The notes under the pieces were generated by a model that made no database searches, was not told the origin of the DNA, and saw only the letters and a program-made list of their open reading frames with translations. From Streptomyces fildesensis (GTDB lineage Bacteria; Actinomycetota; Actinomycetes; Streptomycetales; Streptomycetaceae): a stretch of DNA of 64,000 nucleotides. The position numbers and the translations under genes were made by a program. The stretch's first letter is position 1; every line of letters starts with the position of its first letter. The stretch spans positions 124,001 through 188,000 of the forward strand of contig NZ_JAAIKO010000002.1 of NCBI RefSeq assembly GCF_016107395.1. Reading direction: 5' to 3'. Shown here piece by piece: positions 9,240-31,916 of the stretch.

Positions 9240-9285
9240 GACCGGCCGGACGGGCCCCGGGCGGGCCGTGGGGGGAGGGGGAGCG

Positions 9286-10527
9286 GTGGCGGCGAAGGCG
9301 ATCCGGATGTCCGTCGAGCAGCCGCTGTGGCGTGCGCTGATCGCGTACCGCGTGCTCACCCTCGGCTATGCGCTGGCCCTGTTCGGCGACGCCTACGGGG
9401 AGTACCGGCACCCGCTGGTCGCCGCCGTGTACATGACGGTGCTGACCGTCTGGACGTTCCTCACCCTGGGGCGGGTGCGGTCCGCCGAACGGTGCACCAA
9501 GCGCTTCCTCTTCGCCGACCTCACCATCGCGCTGACCGGGATACTGCTCACCCCCGTCGCCGACACGCATCTGCGGATCGTCGAGGGCGCCCCGACGCTG
9601 CCGTCCATCTGGACGGCGGGATCCGTCCTCGCCTTCGCGATCAAGGGTGGCTGGCGCTGGGCCGCGGTCGCCTCCACGCTCGTCGGCGTCGCCAACGTCG
9701 TCCAGCGCGGCTCCTTCGCCCGCGACAGCCTGCACAACGTCCTGCTGGTGTGGGTGGCGAGCATCGCCATCGGCTATGTCGTCGAGGTCGCCCGCGCCAG
9801 CGAGCGGACCCTCGCGCGGGCGCTGCAGATCGAGGCGGCCACCCGTGAGCGGGAACGGCTCGCCCGGGACATCCACGACAACGTGCTCCAGGTGCTCGCC
9901 ATGGTCCAGCGCCGGGGCAGCGAGGCGGGCGGCGAGGCCGCGGCGCTCGGCCGGATGGCCGGTGAGCAGGAGTCGGCGCTGCGGGCGCTGGTCTCCGACG
10001 GCTTCGTCCCCAACCCCCGGCACCCCGAGAACGCCGCCGCGGTCCGCCGTGGCCGGCTGCTCGCGGCGCTCCGCTCGCGCACCGGCGCCGCCGAGGCCGA
10101 CCAGGAGGCCGCGGACGCGGCACTCGGCCCGTGCGACGTACGGGCCCTGCTCACGCCCTACGGCAGCTCGCAGGTGACGATCTCGGCACCCGGGACCCCG
10201 GTCCTGGTCGACGCGTACGCCGCCGCCGAGCTCGCGGCGGCCGTCGGCGCCGCCCTCGACAACGTCCGCACGCACGCCGGGGAGCAGGCCCACGCCTGGA
10301 TCCTGCTGGAGGACGAGCCCGGCGAGATCCTCGTCAGCGTCCGCGACGACGGCCCCGGCATCCCGGAAGGCCGGCTCGCCGACGCCGAACAGGAGGGCCG
10401 GCTCGGCGTCGCCCAGTCCATCCGCGGCCGGCTCCGCGACCTCGGCGGCACCGCGTCCCTCATCACCACCCCCGGCCAGGGCGCCGAGGTCGAACTCCGG
10501 CTCCCCAAGAAGCGCCCCACGCCCTGA
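9286..10527 (+). CDS. macS: MacS-type sensor histidine kinase
   Basis: A 413-residue sensor kinase. The N-terminal half has about five hydrophobic segments with very short loops, a membrane sensor region of the DUF5931 type. The HisKA_3 dimerisation box carries RERLARDIHDNVLQ with the phospho-acceptor His at residue 197. The ATP-binding domain has an N box (ALDNVRTHAG) and a G1 box (VRDDGPGIP). The GTG start at 9286 is chosen for GGAGGGGGA 4 nt upstream. The regulator gene follows after 69 bp. Order and sequence match the MacRS system of S. coelicolor, which controls morphogenesis-related membrane-protein genes. Confidence 0.9.
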   Translation: MAAKAIRMSVEQPLWRALIAYRVLTLGYALALFGDAYGEYRHPLVAAVYMTVLTVWTFLTLGRVRSAERCTKRFLFADLTIALTGILLTPVADTHLRIVEGAPTLPSIWTAGSVLAFAIKGGWRWAAVASTLVGVANVVQRGSFARDSLHNVLLVWVASIAIGYVVEVARASERTLARALQIEAATRERERLARDIHDNVLQVLAMVQRRGSEAGGEAAALGRMAGEQESALRALVSDGFVPNPRHPENAAAVRRGRLLAALRSRTGAAEADQEAADAALGPCDVRALLTPYGSSQVTISAPGTPVLVDAYAAAELAAAVGAALDNVRTHAGEQAHAWILLEDEPGEILVSVRDDGPGIPEGRLADAEQEGRLGVAQSIRGRLRDLGGTASLITTPGQGAEVELRLPKKRPTP

Positions 10528-10596: not shown

Positions 10597-11286
10597 ATGG
10601 CGGGGGACACCCAACCCGAGCAGGACCACACCGTGAAGGTGATGGTGGTCGACGACCACCCGATGTGGCGGGACGCGGTCGCGCGGGACCTGTCCGAGGC
10701 CGGCTACCAGGTGGTGGCGACGGCGGGCGACGGGCCGGAGGCCGTGCGCCGGGCCAGGGCGGCGATGCCCGAGGTGATCGTGCTGGACCTCAACCTGCCG
10801 GGGATGTCCGGAGTGCAGGTGTGCAAGGACGTGGTCGCGGACAATCCCGCGCTGCGGGTGCTGGTGCTGTCGGCGAGCGGCGAGCACGAGGACGTGCTGG
10901 AGGCCGTGAAGTCCGGTGCCACCGGCTATCTGCTGAAGTCCGCCGGCCGTGACGAGCTGGTGGAGGCGGTCCGCAGGACGGCGATCGGCGATCCGGTCTT
11001 CACCCCGGGGCTGGCCGGGCTGGTCCTGGGCGAGTACCGGCGGCTGGCCTCCGACCCGGCCCCCACGTCCTCGGACGAGCCCGAGGCGCCTCGGCTGACG
11101 GACCGTGAGACGGAGGTGCTGCGGCTGGTCGCGAAGGGCCTGAGCTACAAGCAGATCGCCGAGCGGCTCGTCATCTCGCACCGCACCGTGCAGAACCACG
11201 TGCAGAACACCCTCGGCAAGCTGCACCTGCACAACCGGGTGGAACTGGTGCGATACGCGATCGAGCGCGGTCTCGACGGCGAATGA
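10597..11286 (+). CDS. macR: MacR-type response regulator (NarL/FixJ family)
   Basis: A 229-residue response regulator. The receiver domain (about 13-130) has the acidic pair D19-D20, the phospho-acceptor D64 in VLDLNLPG and the conserved Lys in the LLKSAG segment. The C-terminal LuxR-type HTH (about 160-225) has LTDRETEVLRLVAKGLSYKQ and a recognition helix in SHRTVQNHVQN. It is the partner of the upstream kinase. From memory, S. coelicolor MacR binds TGAGTAC-N2-GTACTCA. A site differing at 2 of 14 defined positions is in this window at 31063-31078. No copy was found in front of macS. Confidence 0.92.
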   Translation: MAGDTQPEQDHTVKVMVVDDHPMWRDAVARDLSEAGYQVVATAGDGPEAVRRARAAMPEVIVLDLNLPGMSGVQVCKDVVADNPALRVLVLSASGEHEDVLEAVKSGATGYLLKSAGRDELVEAVRRTAIGDPVFTPGLAGLVLGEYRRLASDPAPTSSDEPEAPRLTDRETEVLRLVAKGLSYKQIAERLVISHRTVQNHVQNTLGKLHLHNRVELVRYAIERGLDGE

Positions 11287-28892: not shown

Positions 28893-30359
28893 CTAGCGGC
28901 TGCCGCCCGGGCCGCCCGCGATCAGGTCCGCGACGATCGCGCCCGACATGCCGGCGTGCGCCAGGCCGCCGCCGGGGTGCGACCAGCCGCCCACGGAGTA
29001 CAGCCCGGGGACGGCGGAGCGGTTGGCCGGGTGGAGATGCAGACCGCCCGCGCCCGCCAGGGCGGGGCCGGGCACCGCGCCGCCCGGGGCGCCGGTCTCC
29101 CGTTCGGTGTCGGCGGGGGTGCGCACCTCACGCCACAACTCCCGCTCGCGCAGACCCGGAACGGCCGCCTCTGCGGCCTTCACGACCCGCTCGGCGAAGC
29201 CCGCGGCGGCGCCGGGCGCCGCCCAGTCCGCCCCGCCGGCCGTCGTCGCCACGGTGACCTGGAGGGTCACCGCCTCGTGCGACGCGTCGGGGACCGTCGA
29301 CGGGTCGTCGGGACGCAGCACCGTCACGGTCGGGGAGTCACAGGGCCCGGCGCCGGAGAAGACGGACTCCCACTCCGCGCGGCCGTCCGCCGCGTGCACC
29401 ACGGTGCGGTGTGCGGTGCCCGCCGGTCGGGGACCCCGCAGCGCCAGGCACACCACGAACCTGCCGGGCATGCCTCCTGCGGCGTGGGGCTCCCCGGGAG
29501 CGGGCAGCGGGGCTCCCGCGACCACCGTGTCCGCGTCGATCCGCCGCCCGTCGGCGAGGTCGAGACCGCAGGCCCGGCCGTCCTCCGCGGTCCTGACCCC
29601 GAGGACCTCGGCGCCGAAGTGGAACTCGACCTTGCGCGCCAGGCACCGCTCGTACACCGCGTCGGCGAGGGCCCGCATACCGCCGCTCACGTACCAGGCG
29701 CCGAAGGTCTGCTCCATGTACGGCAGCACGGTGGCGCTCGCCGGGACGGTGCGCGGGTCGAAGCCGTACGCGAGGGCGTAACTCGTCAGCAGGGCGGCCG
29801 CCCTGGGGTCGGCCAGCTCGCGTTCGGCGACGGAGGCGAGGGACGGGGCGCCGCGGCGGAACAGCCCGCGCCGCACGGCGGGGTAGGGGTCGCGGCCCAG
29901 CGGGGTGGTGTCGGCCGCCAGGGCGTCCTCCAGGAGCGGGCGGCGGGTGGCCTCCCAGACCTCGCGGGCCCGGCCGGTCACCTCACTCCAGCGCTCACCG
30001 GCGCCCGCACCGAACGCGCCGTCCAGCGCGCTGATGACGCCCGCGCGGGTGGCGTTCGGCAGCGACACGGCCGTGCCGTCCGGGAAGAGATGCCGGCTCG
30101 CCGGATCGACCTGCGCCAGGCCGACGCGGCTCTCCAGCGGTTCCTTGCCGGTCTTGACGAACAGATCGCGGTAGACGGCGGGCAGTTGGAGCAGACCAGG
30201 GCCGGTGTCGAAGGTGAAGCCGTCCCGGGCGAACCTTCCGACGGCTCCGCCGTACGTCGCCGAGCGCTCGTAGACCGCCACCCGGTGGCCGCCGACGGCC
30301 AGCCGGGCCGCCGTCGCCATTGCGCCCATACCCGCGCCGATTACCGCGATCCGTGCCAT
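28893..30359 (-). CDS. Phytoene desaturase-like FAD oxidoreductase
   Basis: A 488-residue CrtI/NAD(P)-FAD amine-oxidase-type protein. The N-terminal dinucleotide motif is IAVIGAGMGAMATAARLA, followed by VAVYERSATYGGAVG and the GFTFDTGPGLLQLP signature of CrtI-like enzymes. The C-terminal FAD segment is LYSVGGWSHPGGGLAHAG. No crtB, crtE or other carotenoid genes are nearby, so the substrate may not be phytoene. The ATG at 30359 starts directly at the Rossmann strand. A GATACA box ends 9 nt upstream and no ribosome-binding site is seen, suggesting a leaderless mRNA. Confidence 0.85.
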   Translation of the reverse strand: MARIAVIGAGMGAMATAARLAVGGHRVAVYERSATYGGAVGRFARDGFTFDTGPGLLQLPAVYRDLFVKTGKEPLESRVGLAQVDPASRHLFPDGTAVSLPNATRAGVISALDGAFGAGAGERWSEVTGRAREVWEATRRPLLEDALAADTTPLGRDPYPAVRRGLFRRGAPSLASVAERELADPRAAALLTSYALAYGFDPRTVPASATVLPYMEQTFGAWYVSGGMRALADAVYERCLARKVEFHFGAEVLGVRTAEDGRACGLDLADGRRIDADTVVAGAPLPAPGEPHAAGGMPGRFVVCLALRGPRPAGTAHRTVVHAADGRAEWESVFSGAGPCDSPTVTVLRPDDPSTVPDASHEAVTLQVTVATTAGGADWAAPGAAAGFAERVVKAAEAAVPGLRERELWREVRTPADTERETGAPGGAVPGPALAGAGGLHLHPANRSAVPGLYSVGGWSHPGGGLAHAGMSGAIVADLIAGGPGGSR

Positions 30360-30408: not shown

Positions 30409-31008
30409 TCAGGTCGGCGCGACCAGCCGCTTCTCCGCGCGCCGGGCCTTCCAGCGGCGCAGGAAGCGGCGGATCCGGGAGAACAGGAAGACGACCGTGA
30501 TGATGCCGAGCACCAGTATCGTGCCCGCGATGATCGCGGCGGCGAGCGGATGGAAGAGCGCGAAGACGATGATCGCGGAGACACCGAGGTCCTCGGCGAG
30601 GCTGAGGACGATGTTGCTGGCCGGTTCGGGCGAGGTGTTGACCGCTATCCGCGTACCGGCCTTGACGAGGTGGCTGGCGAGCGCCGTCGAGCCGCCGATC
30701 GCGGCGGCGGCCAGCTCCGGCAGCGAACCGTTCTGCCCGGCGAGCAGCGCCGCGACCACCGCTCCGGCGACCGGGCGGATGACGGTGTGCACCACGTCCC
30801 ACGCCGAGTCCACGAACGGGATCTTGTCGGCGACGGCCTCGCACAGGAACAGCACCCCGGCGACGATCAGCACATCGGGCCGCTCCAGGGACGCGGGTAC
30901 CTCGTCGGTGACCCCGGTCGCGCCCATCAGGCCGAGCAGGAACACCACGGCGTAGGCGTTGATCCCGCTCGCCCAGCCGCTGGTGAACACGAGCGGAAGT
31001 ACCGACAT
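30409..31008 (-). CDS. DUF4126 membrane protein
   Basis: A 199-residue protein with about five hydrophobic helices (about 5-30, 45-62, 78-95, 128-150 and 155-178). It ends in a very basic tail (RRFLRRWKARRAEKR). The INAYAVVFLLGL and DKIPFVDSAWD segments fit the DUF4126 family, whose function is not established. The ATG lies 7 nt after a TACGAT -10 box, so translation is probably leaderless. A MacR-type box is centred about 62 bp upstream of that start, a typical activator position. The gene may belong to the MacRS morphogenetic membrane-protein set. Confidence 0.82.
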   Translation of the reverse strand: MSVLPLVFTSGWASGINAYAVVFLLGLMGATGVTDEVPASLERPDVLIVAGVLFLCEAVADKIPFVDSAWDVVHTVIRPVAGAVVAALLAGQNGSLPELAAAAIGGSTALASHLVKAGTRIAVNTSPEPASNIVLSLAEDLGVSAIIVFALFHPLAAAIIAGTILVLGIITVVFLFSRIRRFLRRWKARRAEKRLVAPT

Positions 31009-31015
31009 GGTCCGG

Positions 31016-31021
31016 ATCGTA
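31016..31021 (-). promoter_or_regulatory. -10 box of the DUF4126 gene
   Basis: TACGAT on the - strand, 7 nt before the ATG. There is no ribosome-binding site in between, which indicates a leaderless transcript. Confidence 0.5.
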
Positions 31022-31062
31022 GCGAACCGTCCACAGGGAGCGGAGGCGAAACCACGCAGTTA

Positions 31063-31078
31063 TGAGTACTGGTACCTA
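31063..31078. promoter_or_regulatory. Candidate MacR box
   Basis: TGAGTAC-TG-GTACCTA matches the recalled S. coelicolor MacR site TGAGTAC-N2-GTACTCA at 12 of 14 defined positions. It is centred about 62 bp upstream of the predicted DUF4126 transcription start, and 25 bp upstream of a small ORF on the other strand. The cognate macR gene is at 10597-11286. Confidence 0.65.
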
Positions 31079-31103
31079 GACGAAGACTTGAGTAGGAGCG
31101 CGG

Positions 31104-31220
31104 ATGGGCCGCGGCCCCCGTTCGGGGGAAGGTAGGGGCACGGACGGGCGCGGTGCCGGTACCGCCGACACGGGGCGGCGGAGCAGGGGCGGCCCGGACG
31201 CAACGGGGGTGCACGGGTAG
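31104..31220 (+). CDS. Possible small Gly/Arg-rich protein
   Basis: A 38-codon ORF beginning MGRGPRSGEGRG. It has an AGGAG site 6 nt before the ATG and ends at TAG exactly where a strong 16-bp inverted repeat begins. The product would be very rich in Gly and Arg, with no recognisable domain. Composition is close to what random GC-rich DNA would give. The argument for it is only the ribosome-binding site and the flanking signals, so it is tentative. Confidence 0.25.
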   Translation: MGRGPRSGEGRGTDGRGAGTADTGRRSRGGPDATGVHG

Positions 31221-31271
31221 CGCTGTTCTGGCACGGTCCGAAGGGGGATCGGGACGTGCCAGAACAGCGCT
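31219..31271. terminator. Strong inverted repeat, probable terminator
   Basis: AGCGCTGTTCTGGCAC (31219-31234) and its exact complement (31256-31271) form a perfect 16-bp stem, with 4 more pairs possible inside the 21-nt loop. It lies 30 bp beyond the stop of the - strand TetR gene. There is no U-run, which is common for Streptomyces terminators. Confidence 0.65.
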
Positions 31272-31301
31272 CACTCATGTCCGCTCAACCATCTCGTACC
31301 G

Positions 31302-31916
31302 TCAGGTCCGCCGTGAGTCGCCGCTGACCCGGCCCTGCAGCAGCCGGGACAGGGCGGAGTGCACGTCGTCGATACTGCGGTGCGACTGGAACGCCTGCCA
31401 GTCCAGGGCGGCGACCAGCACCATCCCGAAGAGCGCTGACGCGGTGAGCGGTACGTCGATCTCGTCGCTGAGCTCCCCGTTGTCCACCGCCTCGCGCAGC
31501 ACCTTCTCCACCACCGCGACCGCCTCCTGGCGGACCAGCATCAGCGTGTCCTGCCAGGCGCGGTTGGTCCGCCACAGCTCGGCGACGTACAGCTGTGTGA
31601 AGGACGGGTAGCGGGCGATGAACGCCAGCCCGGCCCGGATCTGCGCGTCCAGCGCGTCGACCCGGGTGCCGCCGCGCGCCGCCACCTCGTCGGCGGCGTC
31701 CCGCAGCGAGACGGTGAGCAGCCCGACGCCGTGCTGGAGCAGCTGCTCGAACAATTCGTTCTTGCTGGCGAAGTTGTAGTAGACGGTGCCCTTGGCGACG
31801 CCGGCCCGCTCGGCGATCTCCTCCACCGTGGTGGCGGAGAAGCCCTGCTCGGCGATGAGTGTGACGGCGGCCTCGTAGAGCTTCTGCCGCGTGGCCTGAC
31901 GACGTGCGGTGGTCAT
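31302..31916 (-). CDS. TetR-family transcriptional regulator
   Basis: A 204-residue repressor. The N-terminal HTH (about 10-55) reads EQGFSATTVEEIAERAGVAK with GTVYYNFASKNELF as recognition helix and anchor. The C-terminal ligand-binding domain is all-helical. It is the last gene of an operon with the ABC ATPase and the YhgE/Pip membrane protein, 34 bp downstream of the latter. It probably controls the operon through the palindrome at 34818-34845. The ligand is unknown; hydrophobic compounds exported by the neighbouring transporter are one possibility. Confidence 0.93.
   Translation of the reverse strand: MTTARRQATRQKLYEAAVTLIAEQGFSATTVEEIAERAGVAKGTVYYNFASKNELFEQLLQHGVGLLTVSLRDAADEVAARGGTRVDALDAQIRAGLAFIARYPSFTQLYVAELWRTNRAWQDTLMLVRQEAVAVVEKVLREAVDNGELSDEIDVPLTASALFGMVLVAALDWQAFQSHRSIDDVHSALSRLLQGRVSGDSRRT

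Follow-up and report, generated by a model that had tools for sequence, protein, structure and literature searches.

In Streptomyces coelicolor, the record of the small RNA scr2101 goes back to 2008 (Swiercz 2008, cited in PMC5775266), and a Northern blot verified that an sRNA lies downstream of SCO2100 and is encoded on the strand opposite to it (PMC4681348, Romero 2014). RT-PCR with primers delimiting the SCO2100-SCO2101 interval gave a product of 635 nt, a common SCO2100-SCO2101 transcript was detected by RT-PCR, and the level of scr2101 was higher in an rnc mutant (PMC5775266). Neither a regulator nor a structure of scr2101 is named in the portions of these two papers that we drew on, nor is its distribution across the family. 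The MacRS system (SCO2120/2121) has been described through protein-coding targets, namely membrane protein and lipoprotein genes (reviewed in PMC9739842).

Here, we describe a locus in a 64-kb stretch of Streptomyces fildesensis DNA (64,000 nucleotides, hereafter the window) at which, from sequence comparison, tandem MacR sites probably bind MacR and drive, by activation, an scr2101-family sRNA on the forward strand, and not the adjacent gene for a DUF4126 membrane protein. A sequence-only reading of the window had proposed the latter, with a MacR-type box serving as an activator site for a leaderless reverse-strand promoter by the DUF4126 ATG. The genes concerned and the box are as follows.

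9268..10527, forward strand: MacS orthologue, a DUF5931 histidine kinase
10597..11286, forward strand: MacR orthologue, a REC + LuxR/GerE response regulator
28893..30281, reverse strand: FAD amine oxidoreductase / phytoene-dehydrogenase-like gene (Pfam), equivalent of SCO2101
30409..31008, reverse strand: DUF4126 membrane protein gene (Pfam E 6.5e-49), a neighbour of the element described below and not its conserved target
31063..31078, forward strand: distal MacR-type site (box 2), TGAGTAC-TG-GTACCTA (TGAGTACTGGTACCTA), predicted centre at -69.5 from the sRNA start
31302..31916, reverse strand: TetR-family regulator (Pfam), equivalent of SCO2100, with a primer match at 31332-31351 (2 mismatches)

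All boxes were scored against TGAGTAC-N2-GTACTCA, which we take to be the MacR consensus. As the sequence-only reading had stated, TGAGTACTGGTACCTA agrees with this consensus at 12 of 14 positions (2 mismatches), and its centre lies 62 bp ahead of the DUF4126 start (ATG at 31008). It is the sole match at up to three mismatches in the window, and one such box is unremarkable by itself because 0.66 matches are expected at this threshold in shuffled windows. Conservation of the box upstream of DUF4126 orthologues rules out a chance match: a box scoring at least 11/14 lies within 300 bp upstream of DUF4126 in 73 of 83 MacR-bearing genomes, compared with 0.24% of shuffled sequences. Boxes of relatives reach up to 14/14, and nearly all of the DUF4126 upstream regions at 80 orthologue loci carry one. 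Of 121 genomes of the family, 106 contain the palindrome without mismatch, against about 8 for the reversed control. A search of the literature on the box sequence and on DUF4126 turned up nothing useful.

Across the orthologues of 31063-31078, the outer half-site alternates about equally between TGAGTA and TAGGTA, with almost no intermediates; this two-base swap breaks the palindrome while the conservation expected of a binding site is kept. That the box itself folds into an RNA hairpin is unlikely, given that the TAGGTA form, present in half of the sites, disrupts pairing and yet is conserved as DNA.

The box is one part of a larger composite element, the remaining parts of which are the following.

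31089..31105, forward strand: proximal site (box 1), with the half-site TGAGTA at 31089-31094, 6 bp, and CGGAT at 31101-31105; predicted centre at -43.5
31128..31133, forward strand: GAAGGT, the -10-like hexamer in the predicted promoter of the sRNA (NANNGT across the family), at a fixed 22 bp after CGGAT

In an anchored alignment of 128 contexts, the columns of ATCCG-N6-TACTCA-N10-T(GA/AG)GTA-N4-TACTCA are nearly invariant, including both halves of box 2 (TGAGTA/TAGGTA and TACTCA). The CGGAT columns of box 1 are 98-100% conserved. In box 1, the left-hand half (TCCG) deviates from the consensus that we assumed, although it is invariant. Box 2 and box 1 are 10 bp apart in nearly all genera, and in two genera this N10 spacer is 19-20 bp, that is, one helical turn longer. 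The -10-like hexamer lacks T1, with A2 and T6 each conserved in about 87% of 159 contexts. Exactly one copy of the element at up to two mismatches was found in 79 of the 121 family genomes, and none with the reversed control; about 25 MacR-bearing genomes have no element by the patterns used.

Read in the direction of the sRNA, the order and spacing of box 2, box 1, CGGAT and the A/T-anchored -10 are constant, and this fixed geometry points to the opposite-strand sRNA, away from DUF4126. Toward DUF4126, the "normal activator position" that had been proposed is not conserved: the distance to the start varies, and the box lies at -27 to -136 from the predicted transcription start, without helical phase. 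A promoter toward DUF4126 from a YACTCT hexamer was also considered and rejected: this hexamer is the sRNA -10 read on the other strand, and the MacR sites would fall downstream of the start.

The presence of MacR in the window, 20 kb from the box, was borne out by a REC + LuxR/GerE gene beside a histidine kinase and a phosphofructokinase gene, its domains and gene order identifying it as the equivalent of SCO2120. The MacR orthologue is missing from 6 of 395 genomes; a looser search in four of these recovered only paralogues of about 41% identity, and no MacS. None of the six carries the element. In the cleanest case (G008), the order TetR, DUF4126, oxidoreductase is the usual one, and the element and the sRNA hairpin are both gone; its MacR-bearing sister (G023) retains both. 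Two further MacR-less genomes (G013 and G035) are weaker cases with DUF4126 relocated and, because the box is also missing from their MacR-bearing relative G026, the co-absence is partly non-independent. Each genome encodes many regulators of the NarL type (13-17 listed per genome), and one of these, in place of MacR, might bind the boxes; we consider this improbable, given the joint loss and the distribution of exact boxes, which occur in 106 of 117 genomes with MacR and in none of four without it.

The assignment as a MacR-type site is thus sustained by the absence of the element from the six genomes without macR, and the other half of the original proposal, DUF4126 as the conserved target, is not supported, since the element persists without this gene. 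DUF4126 is missing from 33 of the 121 family genomes, and 17 of the 79 genomes with a single-copy element lack it. In the DUF4126-less genomes inspected, the order TetR, element, FAD oxidoreductase is kept, with the oxidoreductase, elsewhere the gene beyond DUF4126, following the element. The element is likewise intact where DUF4126 is 2.5 kb away (G067). Element and hairpin survive together in G017, which has DUF4126 on a different contig, and where 6 kb separate the element from DUF4126 (G064 and G118) and the element sits between two converging genes.

Nested rearrangements were apparent at three of these loci (L223, L224 and L270). The element and DUF4126 are separated by an inverted TetR-ABC transporter block in G064 and G118. 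In G109 the element has been inverted at its usual place and is intact, as is its hairpin.

Most genomes with a DUF4126 gene have the box upstream of it, a leaderless -10 (TTACGAT) is conserved beside its start, and -62 is the commonest box position in Streptomyces, all of which would fit a role as the DUF4126 promoter. Persistence of the element with DUF4126 lost or distant, or with the element flipped, together with the unphased distances, excludes this as the conserved role and leaves activation of DUF4126 from the box as a very unlikely explanation. A two-way operator, from which MacR would act on the DUF4126 or oxidoreductase promoter opposite as well as driving the sRNA, is a possibility to which we give less weight than to control of the sRNA alone but which deserves consideration: NarL-type regulators often work on divergent promoters, and where DUF4126 is missing, some 170-440 bp separate the element from the oxidoreductase downstream of it. 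On the gene side, however, the spacing is unconserved, and the element stays intact when flipped or separated.

The predicted transcript and its structural features on the other side of the element are given below.

31140..31270, forward strand: predicted sRNA, relative of scr2101 / scr2100(d-), with the start inferred from the -10 and the end from the terminator
31154..31189, forward strand: conserved sRNA hairpin, comprising an outer stem, an internal loop, the inner stem CCGCCG/CGGCGG (31162-31181) and the loop ACACGGGG (31168-31175)
31220..31270, both strands: strong inverted repeat GCGCTGTTCTGGCACG...CGTGCCAGAACAGCGC, a probable terminator for the sRNA (forward) and TetR (reverse)

The predicted sRNA occupies the scr2101-family position, between the equivalents of SCO2100 and SCO2101 and on the opposite strand, with the conserved -10-like hexamer marking a putative promoter of its own and the strong inverted repeat a probable terminator; the start is a prediction. 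As for SCO2100-SCO2101, the published primers (PMC5775266) fall on the 3' end of the TetR gene and the 5' end of the oxidoreductase gene. The oxidoreductase-side primer has 3 mismatches at locus L264 and matches exactly at L280 and L285. At L285, from another Streptomyces genome, both primers match exactly and define a product of 634 nt, against the 635 nt reported, with the element inside. The primer labels in PMC5775266 seem to be swapped, the "SCO2101" primer fitting the 3' end of TetR (SCO2100) and the other one the 5' end of the oxidoreductase (SCO2101).

The hairpin with the loop (A/G)CACGGGG is present in 157 of 159 contexts. Compensatory changes occur at 9 of its 12 pairs among 117 distinct sequences, values attained by none of 500 shuffles and by no slid version. 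The predicted sRNA folds 5.3 SD below shuffled sequences (z -5.3), with much of this due to the terminator. No conserved small ORF was found in the sRNA, since 136 of the 159 contexts lack any closed ORF, and Rfam models run across 30900-31400 gave chance-level matches only and reached no known family. At L256 (G007) and L268 (G012), the CCCCGTG(T/C) hairpin of the sRNA is tandemly duplicated just upstream of the element. An autonomous DNA site without a transcript was dropped from consideration in view of the covarying hairpin and of the sRNA already reported at this place.

In this reading, the box would be the distal one of two tandem MacR sites forming an operator in the promoter of a conserved forward-strand sRNA gene. 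MacR dimers at about -69.5 (box 2) and about -43.5 (box 1) would occupy the positions of an ordinary activator and would bring RNA polymerase to a promoter that is weak because its -10 is poor. The resulting RNA, from about 31140 to 31270, would expose the (A/G)CACGGGG loop on a structured hairpin and stop at the terminator common to TetR; the loop would probably pair with mRNAs bearing CCCCGUG(U).

Two modes of action can be weighed for such an RNA. One is that it acts mainly as a cis-antisense to the SCO2100-SCO2101 read-through transcript, with degradation by RNase III; the common transcript and the raised scr2101 level in the rnc mutant (PMC5775266) would agree with this. However, the element is intact in the rearranged G109, G064 and G118, where the RNA no longer opposes that transcript, and pure antisense pairing does not need covarying stems or an invariant loop, so that we regard cis-antisense action as the main function as rather unlikely. 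The other mode is action in trans through the loop, which is probable because the rearranged copies no longer face a neighbouring mRNA; its predicted targets follow from the loop sequence. Whether MacRS directly controls a trans-acting sRNA of the Streptomycetaceae, the invariant (A/G)CACGGGG loop of which regulates CCCCGUG mRNAs as a post-transcriptional arm of the MacR regulon, is a proposal for and against which we see the case as evenly balanced.

With these findings, scr2101 gains a candidate regulator, suggested by the tandem MacR operator and the joint loss with MacRS, as well as a structure and a candidate pairing sequence, and the developmental regulator MacR would be linked to a known but unexplained small RNA. 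If the proposal is true, a two-component regulon so far described through membrane-protein genes would include a small RNA, and a post-transcriptional arm may account for part of the effects of MacR on development and antibiotics.

Among known systems, scr2101 / scr2100(d-) of S. coelicolor is placed in the same interval between TetR (SCO2100) and the oxidoreductase (SCO2101), on the opposite strand, as located by the published primers; unlike that locus, the window has the DUF4126 gene on the stretch from the sRNA promoter to the oxidoreductase gene. The likeness to the MacRS system lies in the palindromic 7-2-7 site, in macRS being encoded 20 kb away and in the loss of the element together with MacRS, and the difference from the described regulon is that the conserved candidate target here is an sRNA with two tandem sites. 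The other MacR-box loci inspected (intergenic by maf, upstream of a YiaA-like gene and by a lipoprotein gene) have a single palindrome and no box 1. The only perfect MacR box of its genome lies between carboxylase genes and maf (L081; G000:C107:434760-434775), and this is the most conserved MacR site, since 20 family box loci inspected cluster with it. Two loci (L083 and L085), at which a box with one mismatch precedes the gene of a YiaA-like small membrane protein or of a small lipoprotein, fit the described MacR regulon. In enterobacteria, sRNAs under two-component control, such as OmrA/B under OmpR, are likewise short and structured and are preceded by sites for a response regulator. The RNA and the regulator family are unrelated to those of the window.
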